A stretch of DNA of 64,000 nucleotides, from positions 1,302,001 to 1,366,000 of the forward strand of contig NZ_CP021361.1 of assembly GCF_002157145.1 (NCBI RefSeq), written 5' to 3'. This DNA is from Acidovorax carolinensis. GTDB lineage: Bacteria; Pseudomonadota; Gammaproteobacteria; Burkholderiales; Burkholderiaceae_C. Positions 19,489 through 55,894 of this stretch are shown piece after piece (the stretch's first letter is position 1; the number at the start of each line of letters is the position of its first letter). The notes below the pieces were generated by a model. The model saw only the letters and a list, made by a program, of their open reading frames with translations, was not told the DNA's origin and did no database searches. Both the position numbers and the translations under genes were made by a program.

Positions 19489-20420
19489 GAACTTATCCGT
19501 AAATAGATAAAATATCATTCCGAGCTGCAGCGAACGCGGCGTCGGAGTGATACGTTGAGCAAACGAGTTGATTCGTGGGTGGTAACGGATGAGTTCTGGC
19601 AGCGTGTGGAACCACTGGTCCCTCAACGCGCACAGGTCCCGGGCAAACAGTACGTTCGCAAGCCTGGAGCAGGTCGGCCGGCAAAGCCAGCACGCCAGGT
19701 GTTCGAGGCCATCGTGTTTGTGTTGCGGACAGGCTGCCAGTGGAAGGCACTGCCTGCTGAGCGCTTTGGTAGCGCCAGCGCCATTCACAAACGCTTTCTT
19801 GAATGGGAGAAGGCGGGCTTCTTTGAAGCAGTCTGGAAAGCTGGCTTGGCGGAATACGACGAGATGCAGGGTATCGCGTGGCGATGGCAAAGCGTCGATG
19901 GCGCGATGATGAAGGCACCATTGGCACAAGAAGCTGTCGGCCCGAACCCGACGGACCGGGGGAAAAAAGGGAAGCAAACGCCATCTGCTGGTGGACGGCC
20001 GTGGCGTCCCGTTGTCGCTCGTCGTGAGCGGGGCCAATGTCCATGACTGCAAGAGGCTTGATGCGGTGCTCAGTGCAATTGTTATCAAGCACCAGGCCCC
20101 ATCCCACAGACGAAACAAACATTTGTGCGCCGACGCGGGCTACCGAGGCGCAGAGCATCTTCGCGCGATAGAAGGTCATGGCTACATCCCTCACGTTGTC
20201 AGTCGCCGCAAGGAGACCGAGATCAAGCGGCGCAACCCCAAGCACAAGGCCAGGCTCTGGGTTGTTGAGGTGTGCCACAGCTGGTTCAACCGCTTTCGCA
20301 AATTGCTTGTGCGCTACGAGAAGCTCGAGCGCAGCTTCCTCGCGCTCAACCATCTCGCTGCGGCCATCATCGCGTTTCGCAAGGTGCCGTTGAACGTCAA
20401 CATAATTTACGGATAAGTTC
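19489..20420 (+). mobile_element. IS5-family insertion sequence, 932 bp
   Basis: The ends are perfect 16-bp inverted repeats, GAACTTATCCGTAAAT (19489-19504) and its complement (20405-20420). They are flanked by a 3-bp TAA duplication (19486-19488 and 20421-20423), typical of the TNA-duplicating groups of IS5. It encodes one transposase in two reading frames. The element sits between acnB and trhP; its right end supplies the C of the trhP stop codon. Clean ends and duplication indicate a recent insertion. Confidence 0.9.
19555..20416 (+). pseudogene. IS5-family transposase, two overlapping frames
   Basis: The first frame (19555-20046, 163 aa) carries the DUF4096-like N-terminus (DEFWQRVEPLVPQ, GCQWKALP) and the first DDE Asp in WQSVDGAMMK. 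The second (from about 19970; ATG at 19991 to 20416) carries LCADAGYRG with the second Asp and the VVE/RFRKLL region with the Glu. They join at GGGGGAAAAAAGGG (19958-19971). The needed shift is +1 (or -2), which the usual -1 slippage at an A6 run would not give, so this is either an inactivating one-base insertion or unusual recoding. The stop codon lies in the right inverted repeat. Confidence 0.8.
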
Positions 20421-21799
20421 TAAATTTTTTCGGTTTCAAATACCCGCGCCAGCAATGCGCCTTCGGCCGGCCCTGCCAGCGGAATGCGCACGCGCAGCGG
20501 GCTGCCTGCCGCTACCTGCAGCGGTGCACCGTCCAGGCCCAGCATCTGCTCCAGCCGCAGCGTGCGGTTGCCGCTGGGGTGAATGATTTCCAGCATGTCG
20601 CCCACGGCAAAGCGGTTTTTTGTTTCTACTTCGGCCCAGCCGTCCTGCACGGCCTTGACTTCGCCCACGAACTGGCTGCGCTGGTTTTCAGAGCTGCCGG
20701 TTTCGTAGTTCTGGTAGTCGTTGGCGGGGCGGCGCTCCAGAAAACCGGTTGTGTAGCCCCGGTTGGACAGGCCTTCGAGTTCGGTGATGAGTGCTGGGTT
20801 GAAGGGGCGACCGGCCACAGCGTCGTCGATGGCGCGGCGGTAGACCTGCGCCGTACGCGAAACGTAGTACTGGCTCTTGGTGCGGCCCTCGATCTTGAGC
20901 GAATCGACGCCGATTTCCACCAGACGCTGCACATGCTCGACGGCGCGCAGGTCCTTGCTGTTCATGATGTAGGTGCCGTGCTCGTCCTCCATGATGGGCA
21001 TGAGCTGGCCGGGGCGCTCTTTTTCTTCCAGCAGATAGACCTGGTCGGCCAGCGGGTGGCGCGCGCCACCACCGCAGGCCGCAAAGGCGGCGTGGTCCTC
21101 TTCCTGGGCCTTGGCAAAGTCGAAATCGCCGTCCATGCGCACGGCCATGGCCTCGCCGGTGTTCGGGTCCACCGTTGCGGGTTGCGTGGCGTAGTTCCAG
21201 CGGCAGGCATTGGTGCAGGTGCCCTGGTTGCTGTCGCGCCGGTTGAAGTAGCCCGAGAGCAGGCAGCGGCCCGAATAGGCGATGCACAGCGCGCCGTGCA
21301 CGAACACTTCCAGCTCCATGTCGGGGCATTCCTGGCGGATCTTGGCGATCTCGTCCAGGCTCAGTTCGCGCGAGAGGATGATGCGCGTCACGCCCACCTT
21401 CTGCCAGAACTTCACGGCTGCGTAGTTGACGGTGTTGGCCTGCACCGAGAGGTGGATGGCCACCTCGGGCCACTTCTCGCGCACCATCATGATCAGGCCG
21501 GGGTCGGCCATGATGAGGGCGTCCGGGCGCATGGCGATGATGGGCTCGATGTCGCGCAGGTAGGTGCGCACCTTGTCGTTGTGCGGCAGCAGGTTGCTGG
21601 TCAGAAAGAATTTTTTGCCGCGCGCATGGGCTTCGCGGATGCCTTGCTCGATCTGTTCCTGGCGGAATTCGTTGTTGCGGGCGCGCAGGGAGTAGCGTGG
21701 CTGGCCGGCATAGACAGCGTCGGCGCCAAAGTCGTAGGCCGCGCGCATCTTGTCGAGCGAGCCGGCGGGCAGCAGCAGTTCGGGGCTTTTCAGGGTCAT
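20420..21799 (-). CDS. trhP: U32-family peptidase-like tRNA hydroxylation protein TrhP (YegQ)
   Basis: 459 residues of the U32 family, YegQ type. It starts ELLLPAGSLDKMRAAYDFGADAVYAGQ (about 6-32) and carries EVFVHGALCIAYSGRCLLSGY (about 163-183) and the Cys-containing QGTCTNACRW. Spaced Cys residues could bind an iron-sulfur cluster. YegQ/TrhP hydroxylates uridine 34 of tRNAs on the prephenate-dependent route. The U32 peptidase label is historical. The stop codon at 20420-20422 is formed across the junction with the IS element, whose terminal C replaces the original one, so the protein is unchanged. Confidence 0.88.
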   Translation of the reverse strand: MTLKSPELLLPAGSLDKMRAAYDFGADAVYAGQPRYSLRARNNEFRQEQIEQGIREAHARGKKFFLTSNLLPHNDKVRTYLRDIEPIIAMRPDALIMADPGLIMMVREKWPEVAIHLSVQANTVNYAAVKFWQKVGVTRIILSRELSLDEIAKIRQECPDMELEVFVHGALCIAYSGRCLLSGYFNRRDSNQGTCTNACRWNYATQPATVDPNTGEAMAVRMDGDFDFAKAQEEDHAAFAACGGGARHPLADQVYLLEEKERPGQLMPIMEDEHGTYIMNSKDLRAVEHVQRLVEIGVDSLKIEGRTKSQYYVSRTAQVYRRAIDDAVAGRPFNPALITELEGLSNRGYTTGFLERRPANDYQNYETGSSENQRSQFVGEVKAVQDGWAEVETKNRFAVGDMLEIIHPSGNRTLRLEQMLGLDGAPLQVAAGSPLRVRIPLAGPAEGALLARVFETEKI

Positions 21800-50479: not shown

Positions 50480-50809
50480 TCACGCCTGCCACACCCCAAA
50501 CCCCGCCGAGCGCAGGTCGATGCCGATTTCGATTTCCCGGTCCACCGCCTCCTCGTAGCCCATGGGGTTGAAGCCTTCATACAGATCGGGCAGCAGCCGC
50601 AGGCCATATTGCGTCACAAACCGGTTGGCCTGGATGCCCGCCTTGTGCTTGTCAAACCGCACATCCGGGTCCAGGCCCGTCATGCCCACGTAAACGCAGG
50701 GCTTGCCGTCGATGTAGCCGGGGTTGCACTTGCGAAAACGCGGCTCGTTCAACACGTCTTTGGAGAGTTCGACCACGTAGACGTGTTGGTGGGGCTTGCG
50801 ACGGCGCAT
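50480..50809 (-). CDS. Hypothetical protein resembling a GIY-YIG nuclease domain
   Basis: 109 residues. HVYVVELSKDVL (about 8-19) and KPCVYVGMTGLDPDVRFDKH (about 35-54) followed by KAGIQANRFVTQYGLRL resemble a variant GIY-YIG fold (VYV...YVGMT, then Arg, and a late Glu in EEAVDREIEIG at about 87-97). The first GIY triad is poor, so nuclease activity is not certain. It is known only as a hypothetical protein in my memory. It stands alone upstream of a palindromic repeat. Confidence 0.6.
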   Translation of the reverse strand: MRRRKPHQHVYVVELSKDVLNEPRFRKCNPGYIDGKPCVYVGMTGLDPDVRFDKHKAGIQANRFVTQYGLRLLPDLYEGFNPMGYEEAVDREIEIGIDLRSAGFGVWQA

Positions 50810-50962
50810 GGGGCTGTTGTGGGCAAAAATTGGCTCTACCGCAAGTGAGGTGAGCGCAAGCAGCTGCGAAAAATGTAGCAAACAGACGAGTGGCAATCAG
50901 AGCGACAGGCCCCGCGCAATCCAATCTGCCCACTCATCCAGGCGCAACGCTACGGCCAGACT

Positions 50963-51307
50963 CTAACCAAGCTCGTCCAGCAGAGGCTGCACAGCTTGTA
51001 GCAACGCGGGAAGAGCGGTTTGGGTGATGTTCCACACCGTGCCCGTGTTCACCGTTGCGTAGCCGTGGATAAGCTGATTGCGGAAAGCCACGATCTGCGC
51101 CAGGTCTGGAATGCGGGCCGCCAAGCCCGCGTCCAGTTTGGACAACTGGTTGAGCGCTTCGCCAATGATTTCAAACTTGCGCTCCACTGCTGCCTGAGCC
51201 ATCGGATTGGCTGCGTAGGCTTCTGCGTCCATGCCCTTGGTGAACGACTCGATAGCCAGCGCTGACTCGCGCACGTCCCACAAAAAAGCGCGTGGGTCAC
51301 GCTGCAT
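50963..51307 (-). CDS. hepT: HepT-like ribonuclease toxin of an MNT-HepT pair
   Basis: A 114-residue DUF86/HepT helical protein. The RNase motif RNQLIHGY (R-x4-H-x-Y, about 78-85) is intact, including the Tyr that MntA enzymes modify with AMP in characterised systems. It also has DVRESALAIESFTKGMDAEA and ERKFEIIGEALNQLSK, typical of the family. It overlaps mntA by 11 bases, the usual antitoxin-toxin arrangement. The length is normal and no residues are missing. Confidence 0.88.
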   Translation of the reverse strand: MQRDPRAFLWDVRESALAIESFTKGMDAEAYAANPMAQAAVERKFEIIGEALNQLSKLDAGLAARIPDLAQIVAFRNQLIHGYATVNTGTVWNITQTALPALLQAVQPLLDELG

Positions 51308-51605
51308 AAACGGCCTCGCGGTGGCGGTTGATGCTGGCCAACACGTAGGGGTTTCGCACCGCGCCCGGCTCCACCAGATCCACACCCCGGCCTAGCAGGG
51401 CTTCCAGTGCCGTTTTTGCACCAAAAAAAGTATCCAGGCCGGGCTGCGTGCCGGGCGCGAACTCCACCAGAAAGTCCACGTCGCTGTGCTCGGGGTCAAA
51501 GTCATCGGCCCGCGCGGCCGAGCCAAACACTTCCAGTCGGCGAATACCGAAGCGCTGGCAGATGGCTGAGATGCCGGAGCGGTGTTGGGCAATGGCGGGG
51601 TGCAT
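51297..51605 (-). CDS. mntA: MntA-type nucleotidyltransferase antitoxin
   Basis: A 102-residue minimal nucleotidyltransferase. The catalytic motif EVFGSAARADDFDPEHSDVDF (GS-x9/10-D-x-D, about 26-46) is complete, and a third acidic residue lies in GVDLVEPG (about 75-82). MntA transfers AMP to HepT and neutralises it. The start at 51605 begins MHPAIAQHRSGISAICQRFG; a longer frame to 51677 has no family support. It precedes hepT with an 11-bp overlap. Confidence 0.88.
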   Translation of the reverse strand: MHPAIAQHRSGISAICQRFGIRRLEVFGSAARADDFDPEHSDVDFLVEFAPGTQPGLDTFFGAKTALEALLGRGVDLVEPGAVRNPYVLASINRHREAVYAA

Positions 51606-51795
51606 TGGGATAAGTGTACCGGCGGGGTTTTCGTGTGCAGCAGCCTTGGCAGAGCGCGTGGTGGAATATGCGGACAAAGGCGGTTAATCAGAGGCTGATC
51701 CTGACTGTTCCCATGGCCCCAATAGCGTGAGTGCGGCGCAGAAGATCCACTCAGCTGTGCAATCCTGGGGCCGCGCCGGGGGCTTGGAGCCGGTC

Positions 51796-52112
51796 TTACG
51801 GCGCGCTCCCCAGTGCTGCCAGCAGCCGGGCGCTGACCTCGGTGGCATCGGGGGTGGCGAACTGCATGTTGTGCTGCTCCGTCAGCGGGCCATGGCCGGG
51901 CTCCATGCCACCGGCAGCGCCATAGCCCATGGCCTTGAACTTCCAAAACCCCCCCACTTTTTTGAGCGAGCCCACATGCGCGCCATCGGCTGTGTGCACC
52001 GCCACCACTCCGTCGTTGACGGGCAGCAACTGCAGGGGCCCGCCATCGGGCCGGGCGGCATGTGGGCAAAGGTGGTGGTGAAAGTGGGCGATAAGGTCTG
52101 GGTGTGAGGCAT
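51796..52112 (-). pseudogene. Small hypothetical protein, frameshifted
   Basis: The start MPHTQTLSPTFTTTFAHMPP is in one frame. LLPVNDGVVAVHTADGAHVG, then SLKKVGGFWKFKAMGYGAAG and a tail ending SARLLAALGSAP are in another. One missing G where CCCGGCCC should read CCCGGGCCC (minus strand, near 52051) joins them into a 105-residue protein. Composition is normal for the genome. No family is recognised. The pattern of error is the same as in tolA, glnS and others. Confidence 0.65.
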
Positions 52113-52746
52113 GGCGGTTTGTATCTCAAAACGCCCGGCGCCCACCGCATGCGGGCAGCGTGGCCCTGTAATGAAAGATGTCACGCCGGGGGCCACAGGT
52201 GCCGCACGCACCCGTTGGGCTGCATGGGCTGGGGTATGTCAGGCGGGCGGTTTGTAAGCATCAAATCAGCCCTTGGCGCATGGAGAAATTGGAGTCTGAC
52301 CCCAAATATTGCAGCCCGGCGTTAAAACGCCGTCGAATTACTTGCTCCTGGATGTTATGTCCGCCCTGGGCTACTCGCAATTGCACCCGCTCAATGGCCA
52401 TTTCAGCGGTTGGTAGCTACGCGAGCGACGCAGCGTTTGGTGATTGGGGCAGGCGGACGTGGGAAGTTCACTTCCAGTTCATTAGCAGTAGGCAAGTCCT
52501 GACCCCGATGTGCGAAAAATATTCCAATCCAAGGTGGTAGATTTTCATCTGGGGCAGCAGTTCTTGGGTGCATTTTTTTGGTGTTCAGGTTCGGATCAAG
52601 ATGATTTTGTTTCTTGGTCTGAGTAAACGTCATTGCCTCTTGATGTATTTCAAATAAGGCCGGGTGTTTAGTTCTTTTTTTGTTTAATTAGAACGGAATT
52701 TCATCATCCATTTCCTTCATTGATTTTTCGTAATTTGATTCGCTTA
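52113..52746. other. 634-bp region without a supported gene
   Basis: The region changes from normal GC to strongly AT-rich from about 52560 on. It holds one arm (52287-52304) of an inverted-repeat pair whose other arm is at 53536-53553. A minus-strand frame at 52633-52403 (76 codons, MTFTQTKKQNHLDPNLN...) has no recognisable homology and poor codon use, so it is not called. No tRNA or attachment site was recognised. Confidence 0.6.
52287..52304 (+). repeat. 18-bp inverted-repeat arm bordering the accessory segment
   Basis: AAATTGGAGTCTGACCCC matches the complement of 53536-53553 at 17 of 18 positions. The two arms bracket about 1.25 kb that includes the AT-rich orphan gene and the glnS fragment. 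I associate this motif with small mobile or REP-like sequences in proteobacteria, from memory only. Confidence 0.6.
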
Positions 52747-53259
52747 TCAAGAAGTCGAAGGAGCATTTGTTGAGTATTTTTTTAAATTTGTGGTCTCAAA
52801 ATAATAAATTGGGAATAACTCTTCGTCTCTATCGTTGTATGGATCGCTTTCAATGATGCTAAAAATTAAATTTATTGCCTCATTTTTTGAGGTTGGCGGT
52901 TCAATTTTGCATCCAGCGTGTCTTGGAATGAAAACTATATAATTAATAAGGCGTGGCAACGAAAAGCCTACATCGTTAAAAATATAGTTGTGGCTTTGAT
53001 ATCTTTCTTCTTCGATTATATTTTTATCGTATTCGTCAGGGTCTTCGTCATCAAAAATATCGTCGGCGCGAGCAGTCAGAGCATTATCGTATGTTAATTC
53101 TGTTGATGAATAATCGCTGCAAGCTTTGCTGAGGCTTCGTCTGATTTCATTCAGCATTGAACTGTTCATTGTGTCGTAGAATTCATCGCATGTTAGTGAT
53201 AATTCGAGCGCTGCACGAGTGGCTATCTTTGTGATGTCTTTAAATAGAGCGTTAGACAT
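52747..53259 (-). CDS. AT-rich orphan hypothetical protein
   Basis: 170 residues (MSNALFKDITKIATRAALEL ... NAPSTS), markedly acidic (ADDIFDDEDPDEYDKNIIEE, about 66-85), with aromatic and hydrophobic stretches later (YIFNDVGFSLPRLINYIVFI). Codon use is AT-rich (many AAT, ATT, TTT), unlike any neighbour, indicating recent transfer. No family is recognised. Immunity proteins of contact or polymorphic toxin systems often look like this, but no toxin gene is adjacent, so that is only a possibility. Confidence 0.6.
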   Translation of the reverse strand: MSNALFKDITKIATRAALELSLTCDEFYDTMNSSMLNEIRRSLSKACSDYSSTELTYDNALTARADDIFDDEDPDEYDKNIIEEERYQSHNYIFNDVGFSLPRLINYIVFIPRHAGCKIEPPTSKNEAINLIFSIIESDPYNDRDEELFPIYYFETTNLKKYSTNAPSTS

Positions 53260-53297
53260 AATTTCTCATTTGTTTGTTGCTGTTTGGTAAATCTGAA

Positions 53298-53530
53298 CTA
53301 TTTTCCCCAGCTATCCTTCAACCCCGTCACCCGGTTGAATACCGGCTTGCCCGGTGCATGGTCCTTCCGGGCGGCCACGAAGTAGCCAAAGCGCTCGAAC
53401 TGGAACTTGTCGTCGGGTTGGACTGCCGCCAGTGATGGCTCCACATACGCCGTCACCACCTTCAGGCTGCCCGGGTTCAGCAGGGCCAAAAAGTCCTTGC
53501 CGCCCGCGTCGGGCTGAGCGTCGGAAGGAA
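53298..53530 (-). pseudogene. Second, divergent copy of the glnS 3' end
   Basis: The minus strand encodes DAQPDAGGKDFLALLNPGSL, then KVVTAYVEPSLAAVQPDDKF, QFERFGYFVAARKDH and a tail ending VTGLKDSWGK. It aligns over about 75 codons with the end of the complete glnS (DAHPDAGGKDFIESLNPNSL ... VGLKDSWGK) but differs at many positions. Homology stops next to an 18-bp inverted-repeat arm (53536-53553). It has no upstream glnS sequence, so it is a remnant left when the 3' end of glnS was replaced or duplicated. Confidence 0.85.
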
Positions 53531-53535
53531 AAAAT

Positions 53536-53553
53536 GGGGTCACACTCCAATTT
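53536..53553 (-). repeat. 18-bp inverted-repeat arm at the break of the glnS fragment
   Basis: GGGGTCACACTCCAATTT is the complement of 52287-52304 with one mismatch. It lies exactly where similarity of the glnS fragment to glnS ends and 4 bp before the stop of the DUF2442 gene, marking the junction of the inserted segment. Confidence 0.6.
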
Positions 53554-53557
53554 ACCC

Positions 53558-53809
53558 TCAGGTCTCAACTCCAACAGTAACCAGCTCCCTTAGCCTCGCT
53601 GGAGAAATTTCCAATCCGTTCGGCCAGCACAAAGCACCCGCATCAATAAAAACACGGTCGAAATAGGCGGCCTCTCGCAAGGCTTCCAAGAGCGGTCCTT
53701 GGTGATTGGCGAGGTAAGCCGCGGCGTCGAAAAGGCCGTGCGTGTGGTCGCTGAATTCAAGCTCCAGTTTCCACGGTCCTGCATGGTGGACGTTGAGTAC
53801 CTTAATCAC
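53558..53809 (-). CDS. DUF2442 domain-containing protein
   Basis: 83 residues from a GTG at 53809. VIKVLNVHHAGPWKLELEFS (about 1-20), DHTHGLFDAAAYL (about 21-33) and DAGALCWPNGLEISPARLRE are the DUF2442 pattern. The GTG overlaps the stop of the DUF4160 gene by 8 bases, so a longer frame upstream is rejected. DUF4160-DUF2442 pairs are common and look like a toxin-antitoxin or other small two-gene module, but the function is not established. Confidence 0.82.
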   Translation of the reverse strand: MIKVLNVHHAGPWKLELEFSDHTHGLFDAAAYLANHQGPLLEALREAAYFDRVFIDAGALCWPNGLEISPARLRELVTVGVET

Positions 53810-54068
53810 GATCGGCTCCTTGTATGCGTTCCAAAGGCTCAAAACGCTGGGCTCGAAGCCAGTTGGCTTGCAATTCAGATTGATGCACCTGGCACCACTC
53901 TTTGATAATCGCTGCCACTTTGCGGGGAAGATCACCTTCGCTGATCTGGCCCGTGGCGATGTTCACCAATGCTTCAAACCCTTGGTATTCCACATGGATG
54001 TGGGGTGGCGGGTGGTCATCGTGCCACATGCGCACGATGATGCCAAAGAAGATGGACAGGGTGGGCAT
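53802..54068 (-). CDS. DUF4160 domain-containing protein
   Basis: 88 residues. The domain signature FFGIIVRMWHDDHPPPHIHV (about 7-26) followed by EYQGFEALVNIATGQISEGD (about 27-46) is clear. Its ATG is 3 bp after the glnS stop, and it overlaps the DUF2442 gene by 8 bases, so both would be read from the glnS transcript. The role is unknown. In my memory this pair frequently occurs near mobile or accessory DNA. Confidence 0.85.
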   Translation of the reverse strand: MPTLSIFFGIIVRMWHDDHPPPHIHVEYQGFEALVNIATGQISEGDLPRKVAAIIKEWCQVHQSELQANWLRAQRFEPLERIQGADRD

Positions 54069-54071
54069 GGG

Positions 54072-55894
54072 TCACTTGCCCCAAGAATCCTTCAACCCCA
54101 CCGCCAAGTTAAACACCGGCTTCTCCGCCTTGTGGTCATTGCGATCCGCCACAAAGTACCCGTGTCGCTCAAACTGGAACTTGTCGTCCGGCTTGGCATT
54201 GGCCAATGACGGTTCCACGATGGCGGTCACCACCTTCAGGCTGTTCGGGTTCAGGCTTTCAATAAAGTCCTTGCCGCCCGCGTCGGGGTGGGCGTCCACG
54301 AACAGGCGGTCGTACATGCGCACTTCGGCGTTCACGCCGTCGGCCATGCCCACCCAGGTGATGGCTGCTTTCACCTTCACGCTGTCGGCGCCGGGGGTGC
54401 CGCTCTTGGTGTCGGGCACCACGGTGGCCAGCACTTCGGTGATGTTGCCGTCGGCGTCTTTGGTGCAGCCGGTGCACTCGATCACGTAGCCGCCCTTCAG
54501 GCGGACCTTGTTGCCGGGGAAGAGACGCTTGTAGCCCTTGGGGGGCACTTCTTCAAAGTCTTCGCGTTCGATCCACACTTCCTTGCCGATGGTGAAGTGG
54601 CGCACGGGGCTTTCTGTTCCCTCGGGCGGGTGGGGCAGGGCGGGCAGGCTGCAGGGCTCCAGGTGGCCGGCTCCCATGACTTCGTCCCAGTTGGTCAGCA
54701 CCAGCTTGACGGGGTTGATCACCGCCATGCCGCGGTGGGCCTTGAGTTCCAGGTCTTCGCGCAGGCAGCCTTCCAGGGTGCTGTAGTCGATCCAGCTGTC
54801 GGATTTGGTCACGCCAATGCGTTCGGCAAACATCTGCAGCGCGGCGGGGGTGTAGCCGCGGCGGCGCAGGCCGACGATGGTGGGCATGCGGGGGTCGTCC
54901 CAGCCGCTGACCTTGTGGTCGTACACCAGTTGGGCCAGCTTGCGCTTGCTGGTGATGACGTAGGTGAGGTTCAGGCGCGCAAATTCGTACTGGCGGGGGG
55001 GCGGGCTGGCCAGCAGCCCGCCTTCGGTCAAGCGCTCCAGTAGCCAGTCATAAAAGGGGCGCTGGTCTTCAAACTCCAGCGTGCACAGGCTGTGGGTGAT
55101 CTGCTCTAGCGCGTCTTCAATCGGGTGCGCGTAGGTGTACATGGGGTAGATACACCAGGTGTCGCCCGTGTTGTGGTGCGTGGCGCGGCGAATGCGGTAG
55201 ATGGCCGGGTCGCGCATGTTGATGTTGGGGCTGGCCATGTCGATCTTGGCGCGCAGCACCATGCTGCCGTCTTCGTGCTTGCCGTCGCGCATTTCGCGGA
55301 AGCGGGCGAGGTTTTCGGCGGGGGTGCGGGTGCGGAAGGGGCTGTCTACGCCGGGCTTGCCGAAGTCGCCCCGGTTGATGCGCATCTGCTCGGCGGTTTG
55401 CTCGTCCACATAGGCGTGGCCGGCTTCGATCAGATATTCCGCCGCGCGGTACATGAAGTCGAAGTAGTCGCTGGCCTGGTACAGGTTGCTTTCGCCGCCG
55501 TTGTTCCAGCCGAAGCCCAGCCACTGCACCGCGTCCTTGATGCTGTTGACGTATTCGGTGTCTTCTTTTTCGGGGTTGGTGTCGTCAAAGCGCAGGTGGC
55601 ACACGCCACCGTAGTCGCGCGCCAGGCCAAAGTTGATGCAGATGCTTTTGGCGTGGCCAATGTGCAGGTAGCCATTGGGCTCGGGCGGGAAGCGGGTGCG
55701 GATTTTGGCGGGGTCGGGCTGGCCGGCCGCGTGGTGGGCGGCGTCGCCGGGCTGCCGGCCCAGCGGCGGCTGGCGTAAGTGCCTTTTTCGAGGTCGCTCT
55801 CGATGATCTGGCGCAGAAAGTTGCTGGGTTTGACGGCTTCGGGGGCTGCTGCGTGGGCGGCGGGTGTGGTGTTGGCAGGGGTGGGGGTGCTCAT
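54072..55894 (-). pseudogene. glnS: Glutaminyl-tRNA synthetase, frameshifted
   Basis: Near the N-terminus, VKPSNFLRQIIESDLEKGTY and ASRRWAGSP are in one frame. From PEPNGYLHIGHAKSICINFG (class I HIGH motif) and LRFDDTNPEKEDTEYV, the sequence is in another. One missing G at 55748-55751 (minus-strand CCCGGCGAC for CCCGGGCGAC) joins the parts into 607 residues. Later parts include VITSKRKLAQLV (KMSKS-like, about 290) and the anticodon-binding C-terminal domain. GlnRS is essential where no transamidation route replaces it, so a sequencing error is likely. The 3' end is duplicated downstream. Confidence 0.88.

Follow-up and report, generated by a model that had tools for sequence, protein, structure and literature searches.

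A DhiTA-like cassette with a foreign glnS 3' tail behind glnS of Acidovorax carolinensis, a candidate integrase-free insertion that recurs in Comamonadaceae

The described system closest to the locus analysed here, the glnS gene of Acidovorax carolinensis and the genes behind it, is the insertion with long target duplication of restriction-modification genes in Helicobacter pylori (Nobusato et al. 2000, as cited in PMC1643837 and PMC4978471). As far as the citing texts describe it, a small addictive unit without mobility genes lies between long direct repeats of its target, and our locus is alike in this; it differs in that a housekeeping gene's 3' end forms the repeat, which is often divergent and partly foreign, and in that one gene is reused across genera. 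PabI restriction-modification pairs also follow immediately after core genes (GMP synthase; gyrB, at an intergenic distance below 10 bp), at loci common across genera, and are like the present cassette a selfish pair directly behind a housekeeping gene; in the cited part of that work a host-gene tail is not reported as a rule, and one duplication accompanied the insertion of an integrative and conjugative element (PMC4615327). In the core defence hotspots of Pseudomonas aeruginosa and Escherichia coli, variable defence genes lie between core genes, often without a visible mobile element, and for many hotspots the mode of mobilisation could not be determined, according to the cited sections (PMC10250203, PMC10121019). 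Those hotspots are larger (median of 26 kb for cDHS1), whereas the interval behind glnS measures 0.2-5.7 kb in the genus and bears host-gene tails as scars. Finally, DhiTA of Dickeya dadantii is an overlapping DUF4160/DUF2442 gene pair, functional in vivo in the cited account (PMC8198452). The window, i.e. the whole stretch of 64,000 nucleotides (nt) that was analysed (contig NZ_CP021361.1, positions 1,302,001 to 1,366,000), comes from a genome assembled as one contig of 4.12 Mb.

In the window, glnS is followed by a DUF4160 gene and a DUF2442 gene side by side, and then by a separate second 3' end of glnS (Table 1). The two ends form a direct repeat (53302-53522 against 54076-54296, 221 nt, 74% DNA identity), their products share 75.7% amino-acid identity over 74 residues, and the downstream fragment, referred to below as the tail, matches Pfam tRNA-synt_1c_C2 (E=1.3e-12). 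Both ends were compared with glnS of 399 genomes of the family. The best matches of the tail were found in G421, G301, G227, G042, G256 and G325 (genera g104, g20 and g144), and glnS at 20 loci of the window's own genus reached at most 80% amino-acid identity to it. The main end was 81-97% identical to the same 20 loci, with at least 92% in 15 of them and 81-89% in the remaining five. At the DNA level the tail showed an identity of 0.855 to the best of six loci of the foreign kind and 0.776 to the own genus, and the main end 0.77 and 0.95, respectively; compared window by window, zero windows of the main gene were nearer to the foreign group. Since the identities of each end to its own genus and to other genera differ in this way, the main end is, by alignment, native to the genus and the downstream fragment is foreign, from other genera of the family. 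A simple tandem duplication within one lineage is ruled out by the divergence and by the different closest genera of the two ends. The first-pass annotation, made on the letters of the window, had described the separate second end and the gene pair before it correctly; its view that glnS itself carries a replaced end has to be reversed, and in this assembly the gene is not complete in one frame, unlike in that annotation.

Table 1. Features at the glnS locus of the window (positions counted in the window).
Feature	Position	Strand	Evidence
glnS, host gene	54072..55894	-	NCBIfam glnS TIGR00440 E=1.5e-177 over 54075-55604; frame broken near 55750-55800
Native glnS 3' end, 75 codons + stop	54072..54299	-	Best same-genus glnS 0.95 DNA identity; 0.77 to the group nearest the fragment
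DUF4160 gene, DhiT-like putative toxin, 88 codons, start 3 nt past glnS stop	53802..54068	-	Pfam DUF4160 E=3.7e-22; NCBIfam toxin_DhiT 65.4 bits, cut-off 100
DUF2442 gene, DhiA-like putative antitoxin, overlaps DUF4160 gene; start codon not certain (listed open reading frame 53558-53935)	53558..53812	-	Pfam DUF2442 E=1.1e-8; NCBIfam antoxin_DhiA 26.2 bits, cut-off 200
Foreign glnS 3' tail, 75 codons + stop	53298..53525	-	91-92% amino-acid identity to genera g104, g20, g144; 0.855 DNA identity to nearest, 0.776 to own genus
19-nt palindrome-like motif, junction of cassette and tail	53535..53553	-	Inverted-repeat search; flanks Y1_Tnp genes elsewhere
Inverted motif copy, far end of segment	52286..52304	+	Inverted-repeat search
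AT-rich open reading frame, 170 amino acids, start 38 nt past tail stop	52747..53259	-	Homologue search found only itself; Pfam, no match above cut-off
Block conserved downstream of glnS in the genus, far side of variable interval	51796..52208	-	blastn matches; within reach in 32/38 genus loci

The ATG at 55894 lies in another frame than the body of glnS. As aspS of the same genome is similarly split, the break was read as a likely sequencing error in the assembly. The gene pair is like DhiTA in the overlap of its two genes; both proteins score below the NCBIfam cut-offs, and the pair is a putative, DhiTA-like toxin-antitoxin cassette. Behind the tail the GC content falls to 41%, against 63% in glnS. 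No integrase was detected among the open reading frames (ORFs) scanned at this locus.

The arrangement is not confined to the window. In 14 of the 399 genomes, the window's included (G000, G041, G054, G066, G102, G148, G184, G245, G258, G267, G310, G416, G420 and G430), glnS is followed on its own strand by a shortened second 3' end, 0.7-2.1 kb downstream (start to start). G430 has two tails, and the main glnS of G258 and G310 is cut by a contig end. Within the window's genus two further genomes, G453 and G454, have a tail. The short query misses short tails, as in L040, where a decayed stretch resembling the glnS end was seen by eye and was not reported by the search. As a control we used nusB, for which a tandem second end appeared in none of 398 family genomes (p=1e-4 against glnS); its C-terminal domain was matched in 384 of the 398, with two second matches, both on another contig, and the query ends 24 residues before the protein end. 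It replaced aspS, which gave a second match, taken as a paralogue, nearly everywhere in the 398 genomes; in the seven genomes with at least three matches, those examined, none had a match within 3 kb. The tails measure 31 to 123 codons, and it is their starts that vary widely between loci, not their ends. By eye, the stop codon of the cassette is fused to glnS at three junctions (L130, L146, L125), two of them at the same glnS position.

We also searched for free tails on possible carriers. Among 8 phage and 142 plasmid records that matched, all 8 and 15 of the 142 were examined, and these were mostly full glnS by annotation or unannotated. The exception is NZ_CP019241.1 of Rhodoferax antarcticus, labelled a plasmid but carrying pabB, in which an array with cargo (L228, 19939-22021) contains three consecutive glnS tails of 122, 57 and 118 codons. 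Behind these come a RelE/ParE-type pair, then genes for a DUF2283 protein and a hypothetical protein; full glnS was not found in this record. Just upstream of this array there is an ORF with an IS91-type zinc domain. Other copies of glnS were seen as well: a second full-length gene elsewhere (frame of 622 amino acids, 73-78% to the queries) in G014 C15, G263, G250, G268 C10, G049 C8, G313 C109, G439 C24 and G444; full glnS on plasmids of Comamonas, Achromobacter and Cupriavidus; and, in G203 C13 (L133), a 3' piece with an open frame of 144 codons on another contig than the full gene.

What stands between glnS and the tail changes from one relative to the next; mostly it is one small gene, in many cases toxin-antitoxin-like. 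A first same-strand ORF begins within 14 nt of the glnS stop in 14 of the 16 loci with tails, against 25 of 106 without; this count omits L148 and L133 (no intact glnS end) and loci with 300 or fewer bases downstream, and in L126, L127 and L129 the true start codon of the first ORF is unclear. Eight of ten cassette proteins scanned had Pfam matches, among them Zeta toxin (L146, L122), PhdYefM with PIN (L147), DUF4258 with DUF2283 (L121), DUF2283 (L124) and a DUF6036 nucleotidyltransferase (L120). A second set of ten genes, the majority being first after the tail, included five with clear defence families, i.e. GmrSD (L125, L131), SIR2 (L127) and D12 and C5 DNA methylases (L124, L129), the other five being weak or unrelated. 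In the window's genus, 213-5742 bp separate glnS from the conserved block (32 of 38 loci). The 94 ORFs of at least 100 amino acids in this interval, scanned with Pfam (PADLOC was also run), comprise GmrSD_N (4), Zeta (4), AAA_21 (4) and D12 methylase (2), together with DUF924 (5), no defence family; an rve-type (transposase) core occurs once and is the only hit of its kind in the listed 25 of 33 families. The interval behind glnS is thus a small defence hotspot, with variable cargo between conserved flanks. The AT-rich ORF of the window, judged by its position behind the tail, is possibly a defence gene of a new type.

The path by which the cassettes arrive was studied at loci with close relatives. 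G168 carries a GmrSD gene directly behind glnS, and its congener G258 shows glnS, a cassette, a tail and then the same GmrSD gene, at an identical offset behind the G258 tail and the G168 glnS (17-1624 in both) and with 92% amino-acid identity. By this alignment, comparison with G258 shows G168 to be the congener site without the cassette; a strain without the cassette at the window's own glnS site was not found. The last 45 nt of the G258 tail are like G168 and differ by two bases from its own main end, and upstream of these 45 nt the tail is closer to its own main end (0.84) than to G168 (0.77), a pattern that would fit, on thin evidence, a crossover inside the tail. L131 and L039, from different genera, share a 43-nt offset, behind a tail in one position and behind glnS in the other. 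In G372 the last 60 codons of glnS resemble the window's genus (0.93, 0.81) and not its own (0.66, 0.68). Between codons -90 and -240 the own genus is nearer (0.88, 0.82, 0.84, 0.83, 0.79 against 0.79, 0.72, 0.75, 0.74, 0.59), the interval from -60 to -90 is undecided between the two, and beyond -240 the direction is opposite (own 0.79, window's genus 0.83); here the best match among three sequences of the own genus is set against the best among 37 from the window's genus. By this comparison glnS of G372 is a mosaic with an imported 3' end, and the gene behind it, its cargo, resembles that of G445, of the window's genus. Within the genus, pairs with common DNA behind glnS retain their similarity over the last 50 codons better (difference -0.014, n=28) than the others do (-0.050, n=638; p=7.5e-6, with pairs that are not independent). 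Low C at third positions of the last glnS codons follows the downstream GC drop (Spearman -0.58, 122 loci); this signal is weak because the ORF 20420-21799 drops similarly and many of the 41 ORFs used as controls are spurious.

The same cassette was then followed behind other genes. Relatives of the window's DUF4160 protein were taken from the best 80 of 202 contigs, 78 of them usable for the repeat test after two with short flanks were dropped; the flank analysis of the cassette contigs leaves out L261 and L287 (fewer than 400 bases upstream). A DUF4160 gene stands 3-5 nt behind glnS in three contigs from metagenome-assembled genomes (MAGs), L251 (Comamonas), L256 (Hydrogenophaga) and L297 (Limnohabitans), and L256 also has a glnS tail. 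In G416, inspection by eye shows glnS followed by a start resembling DUF4160, an ORF resembling DUF2442 and a tail; Pfam found nothing in that ORF. A direct DNA repeat across the cassette was present in 15 of the 78 contigs against 1 of 234 mismatched pairs (p=4e-9). The repeated part was the 3' part of a named gene in five of these 15, namely glnS (L256), rmlC (L278; 387 bp, 99%), ettA (L274, L269) and lpdA (L282; last codons and terminator), and in the other ten it was short, intergenic or without a named gene. The cassette is flush with the host gene only in L256 and L278, with 48 to 295 nt between them in the other named cases. The two ettA contigs, from MAGs of Gallionella (L274) and of another member of Nitrosomonadales (L269), both carry a DUF4160-DUF2442 cassette and the repeated ettA end behind ettA, which makes this a second candidate hotspot.

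Taken together, we consider it probable, with moderate confidence, that homologous recombination in the 3' end of glnS placed the DhiTA-like cassette and its portable glnS tail immediately after the stop codon. The tail would supply homology to the 3' ends of related glnS genes. The donor would be a molecule of cassette plus tail, either circular or flanked by glnS homology, and its recombination with the resident 3' end would give an intact glnS, the cassette, a second tail and the previous neighbour, in that order. The position of the crossover would determine which tail is foreign; in the window it would have fallen near the stop codon, leaving the main end native and the displaced tail from the donor. 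Through repeated arrivals a small hotspot of toxin-antitoxin and defence genes would form behind glnS in Comamonadaceae. The anatomy of the locus, the foreign tail, its recurrence, the sites without a cassette, the mosaic end, the tail array and the repeats behind other genes come from direct comparison of sequences; from them we infer that recombination made the join, what form the donor had, and that the cassette is co-transcribed with glnS. The first-pass annotation had proposed an element that entered at the 3' end of glnS and brought its own end. The entry of DNA with a glnS 3' end, the gene staying whole, is retained and is repeated in relatives; the foreign end is nevertheless the downstream one, and the main end was not replaced.

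Several observations weigh against this proposal. No recombination intermediate was seen. For the crossover in G258 the evidence consists of two diagnostic bases plus the downstream match. The direction is mixed at the 13 loci that have congeners: the main end is closer to congeners in eight, to others in four and tied in one, and the tail is nearer to others in seven and to congeners in six; the tails nearer to others are those of the window, L121, L129, L125 and L123, clearly, and of L132 and L124, barely (0.02 or less). Such mixed affinities are compatible with a variable crossover inside the tail and not easily with a fixed site. The DUF4160 gene was not seen behind glnS in g104, g20 and g152, the nearest groups of the tail (first ORFs of L134-L139), so these groups point to no donor. 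Besides, G318 (C45:172756-178238) has two aspS 3' tails, 3.9 and 9.2 kb downstream of aspS, so that host-gene tails are not confined to glnS.

An accretion in two steps would turn the order of events around: a foreign 3' end with the AT-rich gene would have replaced the glnS end, and a native-type 3' end from the same genus, with the DUF4160-DUF2442 pair, would later have displaced it downstream. This is the direction of the first-pass annotation applied twice. An AT-rich gene behind the tail, as the defence genes are in relatives, the two tails of G430, and the main end being the imported one in G372 and G258 all speak for it. It has to assume two events, the second restoring the native type, though, with zero foreign patches left in the main glnS and with an ORF that has no homologue which could show an earlier neighbourhood of glnS, and we hold it to be unlikely. 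A site-specific element with its attachment site in the glnS 3' end, and its integrase since lost, would account for cargo flush behind the stop and for a glnS end well conserved between genera. We regard this as very improbable, taking into account the lack of an integrase among the ORFs scanned at the locus, the single rve-type core in the genus interval, the varying 5' edges of the tails and the use of other genes by the same cassette. An attachment-like stretch under synonymous constraint was looked for at the glnS end and rejected, as synonymous diversity there is high (the last 14 codons rank 516 of 544 windows). The classical integrative element put forward in the first-pass annotation is accordingly set aside, and recombination with related DNA, which it named as the alternative, is favoured.

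The remaining alternative concerns the motif at the junction. Its two copies, inverted and 95% complementary over 19 nt, confirm the previously described break in homology, since the glnS homology of the tail ends within about 10 nt of the motif. The genome holds four sites (up to 2 mismatches), and because two of them bracket the foreign tail and the AT-rich ORF, the motif probably marks a breakpoint at this locus. Elsewhere in this genome and in G445 it adjoins Y1_Tnp genes, an association that we take to be that of tyrosine transposases associated with repetitive extragenic palindromes (REPs). Our motif resembles those REPs in lying beside Y1_Tnp genes; REPs are described as having high copy numbers, which differs from the four sites here. 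A transposase of this type could have moved the segment 52286-53553 behind the cassette, exactly between the two motif copies, and in G445 a motif pair (L082) encloses AbiEi and truncated AbiEii genes. At the tail junction, the motif was found in 3 of the 16 tail loci (the window, L127 and, degenerate, L129) and, allowing up to 6 mismatches, not in the other 13, so it was discarded as the general cause of the arrangement. Transposition would not explain why glnS tails stand behind glnS time after time in the orientation of the gene, and no Pfam Y1_Tnp match was obtained among the ORFs scanned in 52181-53543, nor is a transposase among those listed in the segment; we judge it quite unlikely. 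Insertion by recombination in the glnS 3' end is retained as the preferred reading.

Beyond the hotspot, the window contains adjacent HepT-like and nucleotidyltransferase genes (50963-51677), a second toxin-antitoxin-like pair, and a small ORF (50480-50896) with a weak GIY-YIG match below cut-off.

By comparison with the systems described at the outset, the insertion is best read as a variant of insertion with long target duplication, from which it differs by the divergent portable tail and the repeated use of one gene. Long direct repeats surround the cargo, as in the window and in L278. That both repeats come from the recipient is, in our own reading, a defining trait of long target duplication; this is not so in the window, where the second repeat is foreign, and is mixed in relatives. 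We found no paper linking glnS with an integration hotspot or with toxin-antitoxin insertion, in a search that left most subscription journals outside.

Host-gene tails persist next to the cargo as scars of an arrival and, in some cases, show where it came from. The glnS hotspot is for that reason a place where one can test, with genome comparisons and a simple recombination assay, how single toxin-antitoxin pairs and small defence genes without a mobility gene move between species. As a tentative generalisation, toxin-antitoxin and defence genes may travel as integrase-free cassettes of cargo plus the 3' tail of a housekeeping gene, the tail being a portable homology arm, like attC for integron cassettes. 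They could then insert behind the same essential gene in any relative, leave it whole, take over its transcription and stack into arrays, behind glnS in Comamonadaceae and behind ettA, rmlC and lpdA elsewhere. Considering that related bacteria repeat the pattern with other cargo, the locus suggests that no integrase is involved when such cassettes enter behind a housekeeping gene, and that the gene stays intact.

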